Source of the DNA: Opitutaceae bacterium
GTDB lineage: Bacteria > Verrucomicrobiota > Verrucomicrobiia > Opitutales > Opitutaceae
Length of the DNA: 33,831 bases
Direction of reading: 5' to 3'
NCBI GenBank assembly: GCA_018667915.1
Contig: JABIRI010000056.1
Span: 1-33,831, forward strand
Position 1 is the first letter of the stretch; each line of letters begins with the position of its first letter. This document shows, one piece after another, positions 20,996 through 33,831 of this stretch. The notes below the pieces were generated by a model. The model made no database searches, had not been told where the DNA came from, and saw only the letters and a list, made by a program, of their open reading frames with translations. The translations under genes and the position numbers were made by a program.

Positions 20996-21811
20996 ATGCG
21001 TGCTGACGAAACCGACTCTTTTCCTTTTACCTCGATTGTCCTCACGGGAGGATCTTCCGGGATTGGAAACTCGTTTCTCAAGCACATGGAAAAGGTGTAT
21101 AGGAGTGTGCGAATTTGCAACCTTTCTAGACGCTCCGCAACGGAGTTTTCAGCTCAGCTTAAGCTGAGGCATATTCCGGTCGATCTAAGTGATACTAATG
21201 CGCGGACGGCTGCGATTCAGGAGGTATTAGCATTTCTAAGGGAAGATGAATCTGCGGGGCAGGTTTTACTCATAAACAACGCCGGATTTGGAAACTATGG
21301 CGAGTTTCACCTCTCAAACAGCGGGGCTCAGCGGGAGATCGTCGAAGTGAATATCAATGCGGTTATCGATCTGACGGCGCAGTTGCTACCCGTCATGCGA
21401 GAGCGCGGTGGAACTGTGCTAAACGTAGCATCGGTGACGGCTTTTCAGCCCACGCCTTACATTGCGACTTACGGGGCAACCAAGGCCTTTCTGCTGCACT
21501 GGGGTTATGCCCTGGACTACGAGCTCCGAGACTCGTCCGTTCGGGTGATGACGGTGTGCCCAGGTTCAACGGATACTGCATTTCATGCCCGAGCAGGCAT
21601 GGGGATTCAGGGACCTTCGGCCAAATTTGCGCAAACCCCGGACGACGTCGTGAACGAGGCGATGCAGGCATTGCGCCGCGGCAGCCCTCATGTGGTCACC
21701 GGCTGGGCAAACAAGATTATGACAACATTCGCCTCTTGGCTGCCCTGGCGCTGGGCGACGCCGTTGACCGGGCGCGTTTTATCTCATCTGAAGGCCCATT
21801 CTCGTGAGTGA
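20996..21811 (+). CDS. Short-chain dehydrogenase/reductase
   Basis: The 271-residue product has the classical SDR set: TGGSSGIG (17-24) for cofactor binding, NNAG (94-97), Ser146, and the catalytic Tyr159-xxx-Lys163 in ATYGATKAF. It should oxidise or reduce a hydroxyl/carbonyl group with NAD(P)H; the TVCPGSTDT segment follows as usual. The substrate is unknown. The C-terminal segment (about 230-265; ITTFASWLPWRW-like, aromatic) suggests membrane contact, as in the DltE/YqjQ-like SDR subgroup. The stop TGA overlaps the GTG start of the next gene in the 8-nt string GTGAGTGA. No Shine-Dalgarno is obvious before the ATG. Confidence 0.9.
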   Translation: MRADETDSFPFTSIVLTGGSSGIGNSFLKHMEKVYRSVRICNLSRRSATEFSAQLKLRHIPVDLSDTNARTAAIQEVLAFLREDESAGQVLLINNAGFGNYGEFHLSNSGAQREIVEVNINAVIDLTAQLLPVMRERGGTVLNVASVTAFQPTPYIATYGATKAFLLHWGYALDYELRDSSVRVMTVCPGSTDTAFHARAGMGIQGPSAKFAQTPDDVVNEAMQALRRGSPHVVTGWANKIMTTFASWLPWRWATPLTGRVLSHLKAHSRE

Positions 21812-22655
21812 CCCCTGCACTCCGAATATGGGCCGTGGTTCCTCGATCGTTTATGGCCCCTGGCCGCCGCGACCGTTTCGGGCGGACCGGGTGAAACTGA
21901 CCAGCCCCGCAGAGCTGGCGACTTGGATAATCCATGAAGACGAGGATCTGTTGGTGGTAAACAAGTCAGGTGAAGTCGTTTGTCATCCGTCAAAATTTGG
22001 ACCGACATCGAGTTTGGTGGGAGCGGCCCGAGAGTATTTGGGACTCGATACGGTTCACCTAGTGTTTCGGCTTGATCGTGAAACCAGTGGAATCGTGGTC
22101 ATGGCCAAGAACGCGAGCATGGCCAGCCGACTGCAAAAGGCCATGCAAACCCGTAAGGTGGGCAAACGCTACCTGTCGCTGTTACACGGTGAGTTGCACG
22201 GGCCGGTATTGGTGGATCAGCCCCTCGGGCCGGAAATCGATAGTCCGGTGCACGTGAAGGATCATGTGCGTGAGGATGGCAAGGAGGCTCAGACGCAATT
22301 CATTCCGTTGGCCCGTCACGGGGGTTTTACAGCGGTCGAAGTTCGGCCTCGAACGGGTCGCAAACATCAGATCCGCGCTCATGCGCAATGGTTAGGACAT
22401 ACTGTCGTGGGAGACAAAATCTACGGGCCCGACGCCAAGCTTTTCCTCCGCTTCATCGATGGCGGCTGGGGACCTGAGTTGGAGCGCCAACTATTCATCC
22501 GGCGCCAGGCACTGCATTGTGCGGAAATCGACCTTCGACCTACGGGGTTAGATTGGGTATTTCGAGCAGATTGGCCGGCTGATTTGGCGAAATTCACTTC
22601 TGAACAGCTGGAGATGCCTGAGATCGAGTTGGGCGACCCACTGACTACAGCCTAG
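21804..22655 (+). CDS. RluA-family RNA pseudouridine synthase without S4 domain
   Basis: The 283-residue product has the RluA-type catalytic motif RLDRETSG (89-96, catalytic Asp91), VVNKSGEVVCHP before it, and RPRTGRKHQIRAHAQWLGH later. The residue before RLD is Phe, not the usual His. No S4 domain is present, as in the RluA/TruC/YlyB-like subgroup. It should isomerise a uridine in rRNA or tRNA; the site cannot be inferred. The start is GTG at 21804, overlapping the SDR stop by 8 nt; an ATG at 21828 is possible. The pair is likely translated together, though their functions show no evident link. Confidence 0.88.
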   Translation: MSDPCTPNMGRGSSIVYGPWPPRPFRADRVKLTSPAELATWIIHEDEDLLVVNKSGEVVCHPSKFGPTSSLVGAAREYLGLDTVHLVFRLDRETSGIVVMAKNASMASRLQKAMQTRKVGKRYLSLLHGELHGPVLVDQPLGPEIDSPVHVKDHVREDGKEAQTQFIPLARHGGFTAVEVRPRTGRKHQIRAHAQWLGHTVVGDKIYGPDAKLFLRFIDGGWGPELERQLFIRRQALHCAEIDLRPTGLDWVFRADWPADLAKFTSEQLEMPEIELGDPLTTA

Positions 22656-22709: not shown

Positions 22710-25700
22710 ATGCTAAATCCCCAATCACGTTCCCTAGCAGCCCGATGGCTGCTCGGTGCTATCCTTTCGATCTACTCGCTGAATCTGATCGCAGCCGAAT
22801 CCGCGTCCGTTGATATCGAAGCTTTACGCAGTGCTCTCATTCCGAAGCGAGAAGTGGGCGCGGACACGTTTATCGCGCAAAACCCGACTTATGATGGTCG
22901 CGGCGTGGTCGTGGCTATTTTTGATACGGGAGTGGATCCAGCCGCCGCTGGTCTGGCCGTAACCTCGACCGGAGAGCGGAAGGTATTGGACATGATCGAT
23001 GCCTCGGGCAGTGGTGACGTAGACACCTCAGCGATCGTGGAGCTCGATGAAGAGGGGATGCTCGCGGGGCTCACCGGTTTGACCCTGGAACTACCGGCCG
23101 GAATTTCGAATCCATCAGGCGAGTTTCGAGTGGGGCTGAAACCCGCCAGTGAGCTGTTCCCGGGAGCAGCCTTGCGTCGTTTAAGCAATCACGTGCAATC
23201 GCAGTGGGATGCCGAATTGAGCTTGATACGCCGATCCGCGGATCGCAACGAGGACGAGGCTTTGAAAGCCGCAGAAGCAAAAGCTCCTGCTGATCGCTCA
23301 CGCGAGGAACAGAACTTGGTCGCGCTGCACGAGGCACAAAAGGCCCTTGAGGATGCCTATGCGAGTTCCGGACCGGGTCTCGTGTATGACTGCGTAGTTT
23401 GGCATGACGGCACGGACTGGCGGGTGATCGTGGATACAAATCGAAACGGTGATCTGAGCGATGATCTGGAATTGCGCCCCTACGGCATTGCGGGCGAATA
23501 CGGAACATTTGATGAGCACACCAATGCAACCTACGCGGTGCAGGTTTATGAAGAAGGCGACCTGCTTTCGATCGTCACGATGAGTGGAGCGCACGGCACC
23601 CACGTGGCGAGCATCACCGCATCAAACTTCCCAGATGATCCCGCCCGCAACGGGGTCGCGCCCGGTGCACAGATTCTCTCCATCAAGATCGGCGATTTGC
23701 GCGTGGGTGGTGGCTCCTATGGACCCAGCGAACGTCGAGCAATTGCCACGGCGGCTCGATATGGCGTCGACATCATGAATGCGAGTTGGGGCGGATCCAG
23801 CACCTATCAAGACGGTCGTGATCACAATGCCATGAATTATCAACTGCTAGCGGACCGATTCGATATTTTGGCGGTCATGTCGGCGGGCAACGAAGGACCG
23901 GCCTTGAGCACAGCCGGCTCTGCCGGTGGCGAATCCAGCCGTGTGTTGGGCGTCGGTGCCTACGCTTCCGAGCAGATGGGCAAAGCCCTCTACAATACGA
24001 TCAAGGACAGTCCCGATGCCGCGTTACAGTTTAGTAGTCGCGGTCCGACCAAGGATGGCGACATCGGGGTGGACATTATGGCCCCAGGCGCGGCTTGGGC
24101 TTCGACTTCCGCCGAGACTCTAAGGAGTGCCGGAATGTATAACGGCACCTCCATGTCGGCACCCTCGACCAGCGGCGTGGTTGCTTTGGTAATGAGTGCC
24201 GCCAAGCAGAACGGCATGAACCCGCGACCCGCTTTAATGCGAAAGGCGATGATGCTGGGCGCCACGCCGATCAACGCAGAGGCAGAGTTTACGCGCGGGG
24301 CGGGCATGGCCAACGCCAGTGGTGCTTGGGGCAAGCTCCAACAGTTGGCGGCAGAACCGGCCTTTGATGTTTTTTATGATGTCGGCGTAAACGGTGGCAC
24401 GTTCGTCGATCGCGGACGGGGCCTGTATTTACGGGAGCCGATCAGTGAATTGCGGCGCCACGTAATTGCCGACATTGCGCCACACTGGCCGGAGTCGAGT
24501 AGCAGTGATGATCGTTTTAAGTTCGATGAGGATTTTGTGCTCAAACCGCTCGATTCCTGGATCGAAGCTCCAGAATTTATGCACATGGCGAATGGGTCGG
24601 AGCGCATGAACCTGCACCTTAATATCCCGGAGCGCTCGGAAAAATCCCGAGAACGCGGTGATGTGATCATGAGTCGCGTGGATGCGTTTGTCGCAGGCAA
24701 AGAAGATTTAGGCGCAGCCTTTACGGTTCCGCTCACGATTGTGCGTCCGGCGGACGAAGACGTCTTTGAAGAATATAAATTGGCGACCTCCATCCAGCTG
24801 ACTCCCGCCATGACGGCTCGACGCTTTTATAGTGTGCCCGCGAATGCTGAAAAACTGTTGATCAAAATCAAGCACACGGCGGAAGACCCCATCACGCGTC
24901 GGTTCTTTTTGCAAGTGGTCACGCTTGCGGCCGAACAGGGACAGCATCACTACAAATCCGAGCATGTCGCTTGGATCGAGGAAGGCGACGAACATATGAT
25001 GTCGGTTGCCGTTAGAGGTGGGGGCGTTACCGAACTGGCCTTCAACCAGTATTTTTATTCACCCGAAGCGACCCAACTCGATTTGGAGTTGGAGTGGCAA
25101 GGGGTAGGATTGAAACCCAATACGCTGGTAATGGAGCCAAATCAGGGATTCCTACCGGTTGAGATTTCGCCGATGGCGGATGCCAAAATTTCCGTCGAAG
25201 CGAAGATGGCTTCGGCAGTTCACGTCAGTTTGCCCGTCTCCACGGAAGACTACTACGATGACGAACGCGCCGAGCGCCCAGGTTCTCCGCTGAATCCTGG
25301 TCCGCAACAAGACCGCCTTGTCCGACTCACGTATGAAGTTGAATTTGAAGAAGCAACGACGGCGTCTTTAGGTGGACAGCAATCCTACGACTTCTCTGAG
25401 GGTTTTACCGGCGGACGCCTCAAGGTGATCCACGAGTCGGGTGAAATATTGTATAACACGTTCCCTGATCCCAAAAAGAGCTTCGAATTCCCCAAAGGGA
25501 AAACGACCCTCATCGGTGAACAGAGCACGTATTTGACGGCTATTTTGGATGAGGTAAAAACGCTTCCGTTGCGGATAAACATTCCACTCAAACCCGCACC
25601 ATCACTCGGAGTATTGGCCAATCAACGCGCTCGTTTTATGGGGAGTGCGGCCAGCGATTTTGATCTCTCGGGTGGCCGCCAGCATATCCTGTTTTTGCAG

Positions 25701-26708
25701 GATACGATCATTGAAAAGGCAGCCGAACTGAAGCCGGTTCCGGACTTCCTGCGAGGCGAACTCACGTTCTCAGACGAAGATGACCGAAGTATTACCAAAA
25801 CGAACTTGGTTTACATGTTAGGCGATGCGCCGAGCAAGGTGACCGATCAAGAGCTAGAGTCCAAACCCGGGGATGATCTCAAGTCTGAAACCGAAACGCT
25901 GACCGATGCTGTTTACAGTCTTCAACTCGACTTTGTGCAGAAGCATCGACTGGCCGAAGAGCTGGTGGTGGCGAGCCGTCGACTGGAGCTACTGGATCAG
26001 ATGAGCGCGTTAAAACCCGAGAACCCATCGCCGTTAATTGAGCGTGCGATTGAAGGTGCCGTGCTCACCGGACTCATCAGCGATATTTGGGGCAAACTTC
26101 CCGCCGAAGAGGAAGAAACCGAAGGTGCAGCAACGGATGCAACAACCGACGAGGAATCGGCAGAGACTGAACCTGAAGTTGAAATTGAGAAACTCGAGAA
26201 GACGATCCCGAGTGAAGCTGAGATTTTGGCATGGCTGAATGAAGCGGAAGTCTTGGCGGACGCTGATGGCGTGAGTCGGTTTTTTGGAGGAAAACCCGTC
26301 GCACTTCCCGGAGATCTCGAAGCCCGTGACGAAATCGCTGCGGAAGAAAAGCAGTGGACCGAAAAACGGGAATTTCTGGCTACCATCAATCGCCTCAAAG
26401 CAGACATGTTGCATACGAAAGGTGAGATGGACGAGGCGTGGGCTGGATTGGCTGAATTACAGCGTTGGGAACCGGAAGCAGCGAAAGATACAACCAAGTT
26501 ATTGGCGAAGTTCTACGATGCCGCAGGTTACACCGGATTGGCGTTAGAGTCGCTCAATGGCCGTATCGCCGAAGATCCCTATAATGTCGAACTGCTCAAT
26601 GAACGCATTGCCCTGTATCGCGAGCTCGGTTGGGAGAAGTTCGCCTTAGCCGACGAACGCCTGCTGGCGGTTAGATCTGCTAACTTAGCCCGAATCAATT
26701 CACTGTAA
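22710..26708 (+). CDS. Exported tripeptidyl-peptidase-II-like serine protease (S8 subtilase, 1332 aa)
   Basis: The protein starts with a signal peptide (about 1-29; WLLGAILSIYSLNLIAA). The subtilisin triad is present: Asp72 in IFDTGVDP, His298 in AHGTHVAS, Ser481 in NGTSMSAPS, with Asn394 of the oxyanion hole in SAGNEGP. The large Asp-His insertion (226 residues) and the His-Asn (96) and Asn-Ser (87) spacings match human tripeptidyl-peptidase II (about 220, 98, 87, as I recall). VLDMIDASGSGDVDTS after the Asp is also TPP II-like. The long C-terminal half has beta-rich parts, an acidic tract (about 1133-1165) and helical TPR-like repeats (about 1220-1330). It would remove tripeptides from peptide N-termini, here outside the cytoplasm. 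It stands alone, 54 bp after the pseudouridine synthase gene, with no clear Shine-Dalgarno. Confidence 0.9.
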   Translation: MLNPQSRSLAARWLLGAILSIYSLNLIAAESASVDIEALRSALIPKREVGADTFIAQNPTYDGRGVVVAIFDTGVDPAAAGLAVTSTGERKVLDMIDASGSGDVDTSAIVELDEEGMLAGLTGLTLELPAGISNPSGEFRVGLKPASELFPGAALRRLSNHVQSQWDAELSLIRRSADRNEDEALKAAEAKAPADRSREEQNLVALHEAQKALEDAYASSGPGLVYDCVVWHDGTDWRVIVDTNRNGDLSDDLELRPYGIAGEYGTFDEHTNATYAVQVYEEGDLLSIVTMSGAHGTHVASITASNFPDDPARNGVAPGAQILSIKIGDLRVGGGSYGPSERRAIATAARYGVDIMNASWGGSSTYQDGRDHNAMNYQLLADRFDILAVMSAGNEGPALSTAGSAGGESSRVLGVGAYASEQMGKALYNTIKDSPDAALQFSSRGPTKDGDIGVDIMAPGAAWASTSAETLRSAGMYNGTSMSAPSTSGVVALVMSAAKQNGMNPRPALMRKAMMLGATPINAEAEFTRGAGMANASGAWGKLQQLAAEPAFDVFYDVGVNGGTFVDRGRGLYLREPISELRRHVIADIAPHWPESSSSDDRFKFDEDFVLKPLDSWIEAPEFMHMANGSERMNLHLNIPERSEKSRERGDVIMSRVDAFVAGKEDLGAAFTVPLTIVRPADEDVFEEYKLATSIQLTPAMTARRFYSVPANAEKLLIKIKHTAEDPITRRFFLQVVTLAAEQGQHHYKSEHVAWIEEGDEHMMSVAVRGGGVTELAFNQYFYSPEATQLDLELEWQGVGLKPNTLVMEPNQGFLPVEISPMADAKISVEAKMASAVHVSLPVSTEDYYDDERAERPGSPLNPGPQQDRLVRLTYEVEFEEATTASLGGQQSYDFSEGFTGGRLKVIHESGEILYNTFPDPKKSFEFPKGKTTLIGEQSTYLTAILDEVKTLPLRINIPLKPAPSLGVLANQRARFMGSAASDFDLSGGRQHILFLQDTIIEKAAELKPVPDFLRGELTFSDEDDRSITKTNLVYMLGDAPSKVTDQELESKPGDDLKSETETLTDAVYSLQLDFVQKHRLAEELVVASRRLELLDQMSALKPENPSPLIERAIEGAVLTGLISDIWGKLPAEEEETEGAATDATTDEESAETEPEVEIEKLEKTIPSEAEILAWLNEAEVLADADGVSRFFGGKPVALPGDLEARDEIAAEEKQWTEKREFLATINRLKADMLHTKGEMDEAWAGLAELQRWEPEAAKDTTKLLAKFYDAAGYTGLALESLNGRIAEDPYNVELLNERIALYRELGWEKFALADERLLAVRSANLARINSL

Positions 26709-27833: not shown

Positions 27834-28597
27834 GGAGTAAGATCGAGGAAGGAAGAACTGATGGCGGTGGATACCGTTTTTTTGAAGGCTGAAATTCGAT
27901 CAGCCCGGGGCAATGCTGACGGCGTTTCGAACGTATAAGAAAGATCACCGTGATATTTGAAGAGATAGATGGCCTCCGGCCAAGTGTCGCGCAGGGCCGG
28001 ATCACTTTGGGGGCGAATGATCGCGGTTTCGTCAATTGGACGACCATCAATTTGCTCCCCGGGCTCGATGGGGATATGCCAAGCCGCCGCGTCGCGAATG
28101 GAACGGGCCTTATGAGGGACCGACTGACGGGATAGTTCGTAGAGGTAGAATCCCGTAGCCTCCCAGTCCTCGTGAAGGCATAGACTGAGATTGAAGCGCG
28201 GTTGTTTTCGGAGCCAATTCAGGTGAGCTTTTACTTCGACTGATACGGGACTGAGATAATCGCGATTGAGGTCAATGCCCTCGGCGTTCTCGCGTTGGCC
28301 ACTTGAAAATCCAGTAGGATTGAGCATCGGAATCAGAAACCAATTGGCACGATCATCGAAGAAACCGGCTTGTAACAAAGCAAGGAGGGCCTCGGGCGGA
28401 GCGGGTTCGTCACCATGCACTCCGCTGGATAAATAAAAACGAGGATGCGGTCCGGCGGTCCGCTTGGTGAATGCTATCAATGGAAAATCATCCCGATAGC
28501 CCATCAATTCTTCTCGGAACCCGAGCCGCGCGGCTTCGGCACGAAAGCGTGCGAGCAATGCAACGGGATCAAGCGGGCAGGCTTTGACAGGGGGCAT
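27830..28597 (-). CDS. M14-family zinc carboxypeptidase-like protein
   Basis: The product of about 255 residues has the zinc site of M14 metallopeptidases: GVHGDEP (His61 and Glu64, numbering from the ATG), [12 protein letters not shown] with the substrate-carboxylate Asn-Arg, CLHEDW (His142) and the catalytic Glu224 in YTFETPS. Its small size is like the MpaA/succinylglutamate-desuccinylase-type group rather than the digestive enzymes, so a murein-peptide or small acyl-amino-acid substrate is possible. No signal peptide is evident. I choose the ATG at 28597; a GTG at 28603 would add two residues. It overlaps the lactonase gene by 4 nt and is divergent from gltX. Confidence 0.85.
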
Positions 28598-28617
28598 GCT
28601 CACGTTCTTGCTGGCCG

Positions 28618-28650
28618 ATCCCGGAGTTCACAAGCCGGGATTCATATAAT
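28618..28650 (+). promoter_or_regulatory. Inverted repeat and perfect -10 hexamer before gltX
   Basis: ATCCCGG (28618-28624) and CCGGGAT (28635-28641) form a perfect 7-bp inverted repeat with a 10-nt spacer, followed at once by TATAAT (28645-28650). The gltX ATG begins at 28655. A -10 box this close would give a leaderless mRNA. No -35 match lies at 16-18 bp. The site is also in the 51-57 bp shared with the divergent M14 gene. Confidence 0.5.
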
Positions 28651-28654
28651 CGTC

Positions 28655-29995
28655 ATGTCACAAGTTCGCGTTCGTTTCGCTCCCAGCCCCACGGGGTTTT
28701 TCCATATCGGCAGTGCCCGCACGGCATTGTTTAACTGGCTCTATGCCCGCCACACGGGGGGCAAGTTCGTGCTTCGCATCGAAGATACCGATAAGGAGCG
28801 CAACAGTGACGAGTATTTGGAAGTGATTTACTCCAGCTTACGTTGGTTGGGAATGGATTGGGATGAAGGACCCGAAATCGGCGGGGATTTTGGTCCTTAT
28901 CGCCAAAGCGAGCGCGACGGAATTTATCAGGACTACATTGAGAAACTAAAAGCCGCCGACCGACTCTACGAAAAAGAGGGTGCATGGTGGTTTAGGATCT
29001 CAGGTGAACCGCAAATTATTGAAGACCAGATTCGTGGCCGCGTAGAACGCACTGAGGAGAAAGACTTCGTCGTGGTGCGCTCGAATGGATCACCGGTGTT
29101 TCACCTCGTGAATGTCGTCGATGACATCACGATGGGTATTACCCACGTGATACGCGGTGAGGATCATCTTTCCAATACCAGCAAACACACCGAGCTCTTA
29201 AAGGCCCTCGGAGCACCGTTGCCAACGTTTGCCCACATTCCGCTCATCCTGCGACAAGATGGTCCCGGCAAAATGTCGAAACGGGATCAAGGCGCGCTGG
29301 TCGAAGAATACCAGAAGCGCGGATACTTGCCGGAATCCGTGGTGAATTTTCTTTGTTTGCTCGGTTGGAATCCGAAGGACGATCAGGAGAAAATGCCCAT
29401 CGCGGAAATTATTTCACGTTTCGATTTCCCCGGGGTCAATCAAAGCAACGCCCGCTTCGACGAGCGGAAGATGGCGCATCTCAATATGTCGTATCTGCTG
29501 GAACTTCCATCGAATGACTTCCTAGCCAAGGCTCGGGACTTTTTCGCGGCCACTCCGAAACACGCGGCGATTATGAGTTCGGTGTCAGAGGATTACTTCG
29601 CGGCGGTCATGGAAATCAGCCAGCCGAAGATTAAGGCGGTCGAGGAACTGCCGGCCTATATTTCATACTTCTGTTCCGATGAGTTTCCTTGGAACCCCAA
29701 AGCGCTCAAGAAGACCTTCAAGAAGGGCGAACCTTTGGCGCGCTTGGCTGAATTGAAAGATTTACTTGCGGGCCAAGATTCGCTCAATGACGAAACCGCC
29801 GTCGAAGACGCGATGAAAGCCATGGCCGAATCCAATGGAAACGGCTTTGGGGATTATCAAGCGATCGCACGACTTTCGGTCACCGGAACAAATGCCGGCC
29901 CGGGCATCACGCAAATCTTCCGGGTGCTCGGTAAAGATAGCGTGGTTGAGCGGATGGAACGTTTCCTCGCGAGCCCGCCTGAAATTCCGGCCTGA
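28655..29995 (+). CDS. gltX: Glutamyl-tRNA synthetase
   Basis: The 446-residue class I synthetase joins glutamate to tRNA-Glu. [15 protein letters not shown] (8-22) holds the HIGH-type motif, [14 protein letters not shown] follows, and [13 protein letters not shown] holds KMSKR (about 206-210). The C-terminal anticodon-binding helical domain is complete. The frame is open upstream to 28445, but that part lies antisense to the M14 gene; the ATG at 28655 gives the universal N-terminus. Since a glutaminyl-tRNA synthetase gene is in the same window, this enzyme need not misacylate tRNA-Gln and may be the discriminating type. It converges with the secreted protein gene, 11 bp apart. Confidence 0.96.
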
Positions 29996-32687: not shown

Positions 32688-33831
32688 TTACTTACTTGCC
32701 CAGGTGTCGCGGAGGGTGATGGTGCGATTAAAGACCGGTAGACTGCTCGATGCTGAGGACGAATCTCGGGTGAAATACCCTAACCGTTCAAATTGCACCC
32801 CTTGGTCTGAAGGCAACGTCAGTAAATCCGGCGGGATCTTGGCCTGAACGATGGAAAGAGACTCGGGATTGAGACAGTCCATGAAGTCTTCAGCCGCGCC
32901 CGGTTCAGCCACGTTGAAGAGGCGATCGTAGAGACGGATTTCGGCATCCAAGGCATTCACGGCACTGACCCAATGGATCGTGCCTTTCACCTTTTGACCG
33001 GAATTGGGTTCACCACTGCGCGTGGTTAAATCCGCGGTGGCATGAACTTCGAGAATGTTGCCGGCTTCGTCTTTGACCACATCCTGGTAGGTTACGATGC
33101 AGCCGTATTTGAGACGCACGCTGCCACCGGGTTTTAGGCGCCGGAATTTGGGTGGAGGCACTTCGGCAAAATCATCCTGTTCGATAAAGACCTCGCGGGT
33201 GAGGCGCACGGGGCGAGTGCCTTGAGATTCATCTTTGGGATGATTCGGAGCCTGGGTTTCGTAGACTTCGTCAGCCGCAAGATTTGTGAGGACCAATTTG
33301 ATGGGTGCCAATACCGCCATGCGACGAGGGGCCGTGGTGTTAAGTGAATCACGCACGATGCCCTCGAAAACTGCAGCTTCGGTGATTCCATCAAATTTGG
33401 TTATACCGATATGGTAGGCAAAATCCCGAATGGCGGCAGCGGGGATACCCCGACGACGTAGACCGGCGAGAGTCGGTAAGCGTGGGTCGTCCCAACCTTC
33501 AACCGCGTTCTCCTCCACCATGCGCAGTAGTCGGCGCTTACTGAATAGAGTGTAGGCTAGATTCAACTTCGCGAATTCAATCTGTTGAGGCAATCCACGG
33601 GGCAAGTTGAGTGACTCGAGAATCCAATTGTAGAGTGGGCGATGAACTTCGAATTCCAGCGTGCAGAGCGAGTGGGTGATACCCTCGAGGTAGTCACTCA
33701 AGCAATGGGCAAAATCATAGAGTGGATAGATGTTCCACTTTGAACCCGCATGGTGGTGCTCCACGTGACGAATCCGGTAGAGTAGCGGGTCTCGGAGCCA
33801 GACGTTGGGCGATGCCATGTCGATTTTGGCC
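32688..33831 (-). CDS. glnS: Glutaminyl-tRNA synthetase, N-terminus cut by window edge
   Basis: The 380 visible codons are open to the right edge, beginning in the middle of the family segment AKIDMASPNVWLRDPLLYRIR. YPLYDFAHCLSDYLEGITHSLCTLEFE is the GlnRS/GluRS core, and LFSKRRLLRMVEE is the KMSKS-equivalent; the C-terminal two-barrel anticodon-binding domain follows (IEQDDFAEVPP, RLKPGGSVRLKYG). GlnRS joins glutamine to tRNA-Gln directly. Only some bacterial phyla have it, the rest using the amidotransferase route. The ATG at 33818 is not the true start, since family sequence continues before it. Confidence 0.95.
   Translation of the reverse strand, partial: AKIDMASPNVWLRDPLLYRIRHVEHHHAGSKWNIYPLYDFAHCLSDYLEGITHSLCTLEFEVHRPLYNWILESLNLPRGLPQQIEFAKLNLAYTLFSKRRLLRMVEENAVEGWDDPRLPTLAGLRRRGIPAAAIRDFAYHIGITKFDGITEAAVFEGIVRDSLNTTAPRRMAVLAPIKLVLTNLAADEVYETQAPNHPKDESQGTRPVRLTREVFIEQDDFAEVPPPKFRRLKPGGSVRLKYGCIVTYQDVVKDEAGNILEVHATADLTTRSGEPNSGQKVKGTIHWVSAVNALDAEIRLYDRLFNVAEPGAAEDFMDCLNPESLSIVQAKIPPDLLTLPSDQGVQFERLGYFTRDSSSASSSLPVFNRTITLRDTWASK

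Follow-up and report, generated by a model that had tools for sequence, protein, structure and literature searches.

This work concerns a single open reading frame (ORF) on a contig of an Opitutaceae bacterium (JABIRI010000056.1 of assembly GCA_018667915.1), the whole of which, at 33,831 nucleotides, we call the window. The ORF is uninterrupted and encodes 1332 residues. Judged from its sequence and from structure models, the product is probably an exported S8 serine peptidase that has the complete architecture of tripeptidyl-peptidase II (TPP II) and cleaves in an open cleft. TPP II is generally known as a eukaryotic peptidase of the cytosol. Here the same architecture is found in 84 non-redundant bacterial sequences. 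What appears new, set against the accessible literature, is its occurrence in many bacteria, with export-like starts and with two classes of residues at the sites that we take to be the substrate anchor.

Homology searches link the window protein to TPP II. Fly TPP II (3lxu, chain X) is the top PDB sequence match (phmmer, query residues 40-839 on fly 12-823, E 2.2e-92), with 29% identity over 777 aligned positions, and KP-43 comes second at E 5.7e-17. The rest of the protein was approached with profile A3, which is made of 61 rows covering residues 545-1332 (the C-terminal 59%). This profile matches fly 527-1350 at E 5.9e-143, and the only other PDB match at E <= 0.1 is one tetratricopeptide repeat protein (E 0.059). 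The profile search therefore does not place the protein outside TPP II. In Pfam the window protein has an S8 domain (PF00082, Peptidase_S8, E 6.1e-43) and a first TPP II Ig-like domain whose score lies above the cut-off of 27 bits. It matches only the first two of the TPP II-specific families (PF21223 and PF21316) and not PF12583. Among the 61 members of A3 these families are found more widely (E <= 0.01), with PF21223 in 61, PF21316 in 60, PF12580 in 56 and PF12583 in 17. In NCBIfam the window protein matched only S8-type families, all far under their cut-offs.

Predicted structures point the same way. Two AlphaFold2 models were built from alignments of 58 and 60 relatives (below 85% identity, longer than 1200 residues, rows with masked letters excluded). 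The first, of residues 33-1232, has a predicted local distance difference test score (pLDDT) of 89.9 and a predicted template modelling (TM) score (pTM) of 0.82. It matches 3lxu in Foldseek at 3.2e-66 with TM scores of 0.68/0.67, and by structural alignment at Z 44.7 over 1038 residues. The root-mean-square deviation (rmsd) of 12.1 indicates that the domains are shifted relative to one another. Single subtilase domains rank after 3lxu, from Z 40.9 downward with 292 residues. The second model, of residues 545-1332 (pLDDT 88.6, pTM 0.70), also finds 3lxu (Foldseek 2.5e-38, TMq 0.69; Z 23.5, 706 residues, rmsd 5.8), and the next PDB entry follows at Z 12.0. The C-terminal helical repeats are present in this model. 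The original prediction had proposed a full-length TPP II-like subtilase with C-terminal helical repeats and an acidic tract, and all three features are borne out, with fly TPP II best by sequence, profile and predicted fold. The acidic tract has 15 Asp or Glu and 2 Lys or Arg among its 32 residues. It lies in a low-confidence loop of the AlphaFold2 model (model residues 1102-1129, which are 1134-1161 of the protein), and this loop is presumably disordered. Thus sequence and modelled fold confirm the protein as a TPP II relative along its whole length.

The active site can be assigned residue by residue. The alignment used for this consists of 86 bacterial rows plus fly TPP II (84 bacterial rows after removal of two duplicates, some of them cut by contig ends). 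Asp, His, Asn and Ser are spaced 223/99/87 in the window protein, and all four are kept in every one of the 87 rows. The original prediction had placed them at 72/298/394/481. Asp72, Asn394 and Ser481 stand, but the histidine does not. In the alignment with subtilisin BPN', query residue 293 falls on residue 62, hence 295 corresponds to residue 64, and His64 is the catalytic histidine of subtilisin. H298 is the later of the two histidines in the HGTH motif. The fly residues, taken from the alignments, are D44, H272 and S462, and the Asp-His distance is 228 in fly versus 223 here. For human TPP II we take the corresponding positions to be 44/264/362/449. On this basis D72, H295 and S481, together with N394, are predicted to form an intact subtilisin active site. 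The HGTH motif reads HGSH in L026, L031, L032, L034, L040 and L041 and HASH in L046; a loss of the catalytic His in these seven loci was considered and rejected because all catalytic residues are retained. L028 carries a WDTG variant.

Does an intact active site make the protein a tripeptidyl-peptidase? One clue is a pair of fly residues, Glu312 and Glu343, which we take to be the double-Glu anchor that holds the substrate N-terminus for tripeptide release. The human equivalents, from mutagenesis and crystal studies, are reportedly Glu305 and Glu331. Both glutamates are absent from the window protein, where the alignment places S336 and G362. The tripeptidyl activity implied by the original prediction is thus called into question. 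The difference is not confined to one protein, and the family splits at these sites. The 84 non-redundant bacterial rows comprise 22 with Glu/Glu, 57 with Ser/Gly, three with Ala/Gly and two with Ser/Glu. Fly TPP II, the sole eukaryotic sequence compared, is Glu/Glu. The Glu/Glu class includes 20 Planctomycetota and one Verrucomicrobiota, and the Ser/Gly class consists of 29 Verrucomicrobiota, 20 Planctomycetota, one Kiritimatiellota and seven without an assigned phylum, the window protein among them. The mixed Ser/Glu pair occurs in two Phycisphaerae relatives, L055 and L087, which are possible intermediates between the classes. In seven outgroup subtilases the first site is always Gly, and the second is Ala, Ser, Thr or Gly. 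KP-43, SubHal and Tk-SP show such small residues too, Gly at the first site followed by Ala or Ser. Natural proteins thus differ at exactly the two residues that we take to be the tripeptide ruler, a ready natural experiment. Because this feature, which we take to define the activity, was looked for and is absent, we file the window protein as a TPP II-architecture homologue and not as a tripeptidyl-peptidase.

What if the anchor has moved instead of being lost? Residue 341 lies five residues after the first missing Glu. All 23 Glu/Glu rows, fly among them, have a hydrophobic residue here, while Glu occupies the position in 49 of the 60 Ser-or-Ala/Gly rows and in the two Ser/Glu rows. Such a reciprocal swap is what might be seen if E341 now held the substrate N-terminus and the protein were an exported tripeptidyl-peptidase. 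The position would also be suitable. Via the Tk-SP row, residue 341 falls at what we take to be Ile107 of BPN', presumably in the lining of the S4 pocket, where the N-terminus of the P3 residue would end. However, the acid is absent from 11 of the 60 rows (four Gln, two Tyr, two Ser, and one each of Lys, Ala and Thr), one of the seven outgroup subtilases (L019) also has Glu in that column, and an acid in S4 would fit an endopeptidase with a basic P4 preference equally well. A moved anchor is therefore a tentative idea, and one that we think has the lesser chance of being right.

The next question is where the protein acts. Its N-terminus, MLNPQSRSLAARWLLGAILSIYSLNLIAA followed by ES, resembles a signal peptide under a crude rule that we devised (not SignalP), which calls for an uncharged hydrophobic 9-mer (2.23 here), a non-negative n-region and a cleavage motif or lipobox. 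The rule puts the cut after residue 20, whereas by eye it falls after A29. The ATG is the first start codon past the preceding stop, and inspection by eye found no clear Shine-Dalgarno sequence directly upstream of it. When the rule was run on start codons within 80 codons ahead of the catalytic region in the 79 readable ORFs of 80 related loci, 74 passed. By comparison, 130 of 790 80-codon stretches taken at random from inside these proteins (16%) pass, as do 54 of 214 further long ORFs from those loci, read from the first Met, a set that mixes real exported and spurious ORFs. The signal peptide claimed in the original prediction is supported to this extent. The claim that export would be unusual is not, since a predicted export signal is the rule and not an oddity among the relatives examined.

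The passing relatives divide into 63 of type I and 11 that are lipoprotein-like. By eye, L072 and L094 are doubtful among the latter, and a possible lipobox is also seen in L047 and L089, which the rule calls type I. A lipobox-like signal (e.g., LAGC) is present in L042, L043, L048, L050, L051, L052, L079 and L082, all of the Ser/Gly class, which suggests that these eight are membrane-anchored TPP II-like lipoproteins. The closest relative (L020/L027) keeps MLNPxSR, with a diverged hydrophobic core.

Perhaps the signal is a false call and the protein is a canonical TPP II, a cytosolic-type tripeptidyl-peptidase assembled into giant spindles. The full-length match to the fly architecture would fit, and a rule passed by 16% of internal regions is a crude one. 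However, 74 of 79 relatives against that 16%, some with lipoboxes, is difficult to reconcile with a false call, and both anchor glutamates are absent. We regard a canonical TPP II as most improbable.

The preferred reading, an exported open-cleft peptidase, can be put as a sequence of steps. The Sec system would carry the protein over the inner membrane and the signal peptide would be cut, leaving the mature protein in the periplasm or outside the cell; some relatives look like lipoproteins. The active site would be set within the TPP II insertion, the two beta domains, the beta-rich middle and a C-terminal arm of helical repeats. By analogy, the arm and the insertion might restrict access and allow oligomerisation. 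Peptides would be cleaved without a strict tripeptide ruler, most likely with endopeptidase character, because the residues at the presumed anchor sites are Ser and Gly, nearly as in open-cleft subtilisins; E341 might shape the S4 region. Beyond the cytoplasm the protein could then break down peptides or small unfolded proteins, serving nutrition or envelope turnover.

Some observations do not fit this reading well. One is that the galactose-binding-like domain of the window protein scores below its cut-off (27.3 bits), and that the protein alone has no PF12580 match at E <= 0.001. A PF12580 search of its own genome is uninformative, since neither the genome nor the controls gave a match. Another is that five of the 79 ORFs fail the export rule, namely L071 (masked), L076, L088, L097 and L100, although hydrophobic N-terminal stretches can be seen by eye in the last three. 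Finally, the anchor role of Glu312 and Glu343 is presumed, a literature search on these glutamates found nothing, and E341 could replace the anchor.

The relatives were found by scanning a genome collection, described as covering 84,980 species, with a seven-row alignment. This gave 123 relatives, of which the best 80 were taken further. Two short peptide patterns underlie the scan, which makes 123 a minimum and leaves other phyla possible. The best 80 are nearly all Verrucomicrobiota or Planctomycetota, with one Kiritimatiellota. Closer to the window, four of seven genomes of the same genus have a full-length match (G001, G002, G003 and G007), in G005 the match is split into two pieces, each on its own contig, in G004 (82% complete) all matches are weak S8 ones, and in G006 the gene is broken. 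Seventeen genomes of other genera of the family yielded nothing beyond weak S8 matches, and 13 further genomes of the order yielded a long match in two (G026 and G027). Evenly drawn genomes of the phylum gave 4 of 288 (E <= 1e-60) and 4 of 276 (E <= 1e-80), the same four each time and the window's own among them; at most two candidates were scored per genome, so some carriers may be missed. A tblastn search of viral contigs found no relative. The gene is thus patchy yet spread across this group of phyla.

The broken gene of G006 (locus L036, 6001-9945; G006:C1:689288-693202) has in-frame TGA stops and frame changes and was left out of every alignment. The genome is that of Candidatus Synoicihabitans palmerolidicus, which is associated with ascidians and shares its genus with the source of the window. 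Assembly error may be the cause, and high pseudogene content is suspected in this genome according to the accessible part of its description (PMC8636102).

How did bacteria come to have this architecture? In the part of PMC6713707 that is accessible, TPP II-type SBT6 is reported from two bacteria only, both planctomycetes, and transfer from eukaryotes is suggested. A literature search for exported, verrucomicrobial or planctomycete TPP II, with subscription papers outside its scope, found nothing else on point, and the accessible literature may understate how well bacterial TPP II is known. A recent horizontal gene from a eukaryote would account for a distribution of two species. However, the bacterial rows now number 84 after removal of duplicates and come from three named phyla, and most relatives have export-like starts, whereas the fly chain begins only a dozen residues ahead of the conserved block.

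Trees bear on the same question. They were made from 52 of the 80 loci plus the window protein and fly TPP II (54 rows, 780 columns; below 75% identity, at least 1100 residues); six extra alignment rows, two of them duplicating L021 and L033, were not entered. The bacterial rows are separated by long internal branches. The window protein falls in a clade of 12 of the 54 rows, with ten Verrucomicrobiota and one Kiritimatiellota, on one side of a branch with a Shimodaira-Hasegawa-like approximate likelihood ratio test (SH-aLRT) value of 100. Long internal branches and a well-separated clade both argue against recent transfer. Fly TPP II lies among the Glu/Glu rows, at unstarred forks with values of 81 and 88, and its branch is the longest of all (1.62). 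When outgroup subtilases root the tree (61 rows, 252 columns), the window clade parts at the root from all other rows, fly TPP II among them, at a place where long branches meet. Approximately unbiased (AU) tests accept every alternative tried for the place of the fly protein, a single sequence on a long branch, which leaves some room for transfer. All bacteria as one clade is 15 log units better than the free tree (AU p 0.80, 252 columns), and in the 780-column set p is 0.35 for a clade of Glu/Glu and fly, 0.377 for bacterial Glu/Glu alone and 0.414 for the window clade with fly. Taken with the rows, starts and branches above, a recent eukaryotic origin appears highly unlikely.

Anchor states were mapped on the same trees. 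On the 54-row tree, built with the anchor columns masked, 3 changes account for the three states, compared with 18.0 in shuffles. Related rows cluster readily in any case, so the result says no more than that the states follow clades. The catalytic-domain tree needs 5 changes with the outgroup counted as a fourth state. Perhaps an old exported TPP II family existed in Planctomycetes, Verrucomicrobiota and their neighbours, with the open cleft of the Ser/Gly class, and the Glu/Glu ruler arose later. Eukaryotic TPP II would then derive from the Glu/Glu class, or share its ruler, after losing the export signal. The outgroup position in the 252-column tree is compatible with such a history, and the AU tests fall short of showing it. 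We consider it a speculative and rather doubtful scenario.

It remains to set the preferred reading, an exported peptidase with an open cleft, beside known systems. Eukaryotic TPP II (fly 3lxu; MEROPS S08.090) shares with the window protein the catalytic residues and their spacing, the Asp-His insertion, the Ig-like and C-terminal helical domains, and the full-length fold. For the galactose-binding-like and middle domains, profile and fold align the whole region with fly 527-1350, but the Pfam models taken on the window protein alone give a score under the cut-off for the one and no match for the other. Eukaryotic TPP II differs in being cytosolic without a signal peptide, where the window protein has a signal-peptide-like start by the crude rule, and in having Glu312/Glu343 in place of S336/G362. 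TPP II forms a giant complex of twisted double strands of more than 5 MDa; the window protein is known here as single-chain models. KP-43, SubHal and Tk-SP share the catalytic fold and small residues at both anchor sites, but they match the S8 part only, with the TPP II insertion and most downstream domains unmatched. Planctomycete TPP II-like proteins (Blastopirellula marina L058; SBT6 of PMC6713707) belong to the same family, with similar length and a signal-peptide-like start, and the B. marina protein is also of the Ser/Gly class. However, the window protein sits in a separate clade from them, and the accessible text of PMC6713707 mentions neither export nor anchor residues. A functional parallel, likened by description only, is tripeptidyl peptidase S of Streptomyces lividans (S08.091), a bacterial S8 enzyme that removes tripeptides; in the accessible part of PMC9549277 it is put in its own group apart from TPP II, which is listed there among pyrolysins with an elongated C-terminus.

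Table 1. Features of the TPP II-like gene, in window coordinates.
Feature	Position	Strand	Basis
Putative exported TPP II-like subtilase ORF, ATG start	22710..26708	+	1332 aa; Pfam, PDB sequence match
Predicted Sec-type signal peptide, residues 1-29	22710..22796	+	own rule; cut after A29 by eye, between LIAA and ES
Catalytic Asp D72	22923..22925	+	D in 87/87 aligned rows
Asp-His insertion, residues ~90-285, limits approximate	22977..23564	+	collinear with fly TPP II
Catalytic His H295, not H298	23592..23594	+	BPN' residue 64; H in 87/87 rows
S336, place of fly Glu312	23715..23717	+	alignment
E341	23730..23732	+	Glu in 49/60 Ser-or-Ala/Gly rows; hydrophobic in 23/23 Glu/Glu rows
G362, place of fly Glu343	23793..23795	+	alignment
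Oxyanion Asn N394	23889..23891	+	N in 87/87 rows
Catalytic Ser S481 (GTSM)	24150..24152	+	S in 87/87 rows
TPP II first Ig-like domain, residues 568-678	24411..24743	+	PF21223, 33.6 bits
TPP II galactose-binding-like domain (TPPII_GBD), residues 698-782	24801..25055	+	PF21316, 23.9 bits, below cut-off
Beta-rich middle region, residues ~783-1050	25056..25859	+	PF12580-type in relatives; structural match 3lxu
C-terminal helical-repeat domain, residues 1054-1331	25869..26702	+	AlphaFold2 model, 3lxu match
Acidic tract, residues 1133-1164, low-confidence loop	26106..26201	+	composition, AlphaFold2 model

The neighbouring genes give no functional clue. They were compared across the 80 loci with the window's own neighbours as the only queries. 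The order exonuclease, AI-2E transporter, S30AE, short-chain dehydrogenase/reductase (SDR), RluA and TPP II-like gene is kept in L021, L027, L033 and L036. M14 and GltX genes follow in L021, L033 and L036, and L027 ends within the TPP II-like gene. Sulfatase matches occur in L023, L026, L041, L051, L076 and L082, and lactonase matches in L082 and L084. An RluA-family match (42-47% identity to window 21804-22655) is also found in L057, L060, L061, L062, L069 and L071. In these six verrucomicrobial loci the pseudouridine synthase gene is on the downstream side of the TPP II-like gene, and the window has it immediately upstream; the matches may be due to chance.

Downstream in the window, a 7-bladed beta-propeller lactonase gene (PF10282; 26736-27833, minus strand) sits between the TPP II-like gene and an M14/AstE-like gene. 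The syntenic loci L021, L033 and L036 gave no lactonase match (tblastn, 1e-15), and there the M14 gene adjoins directly. The GltX ORF (28445-29995, plus strand) starts within the M14/AstE-like ORF of the other strand, and Pfam recognises it only from residue 73 onward, so its true start probably lies downstream.

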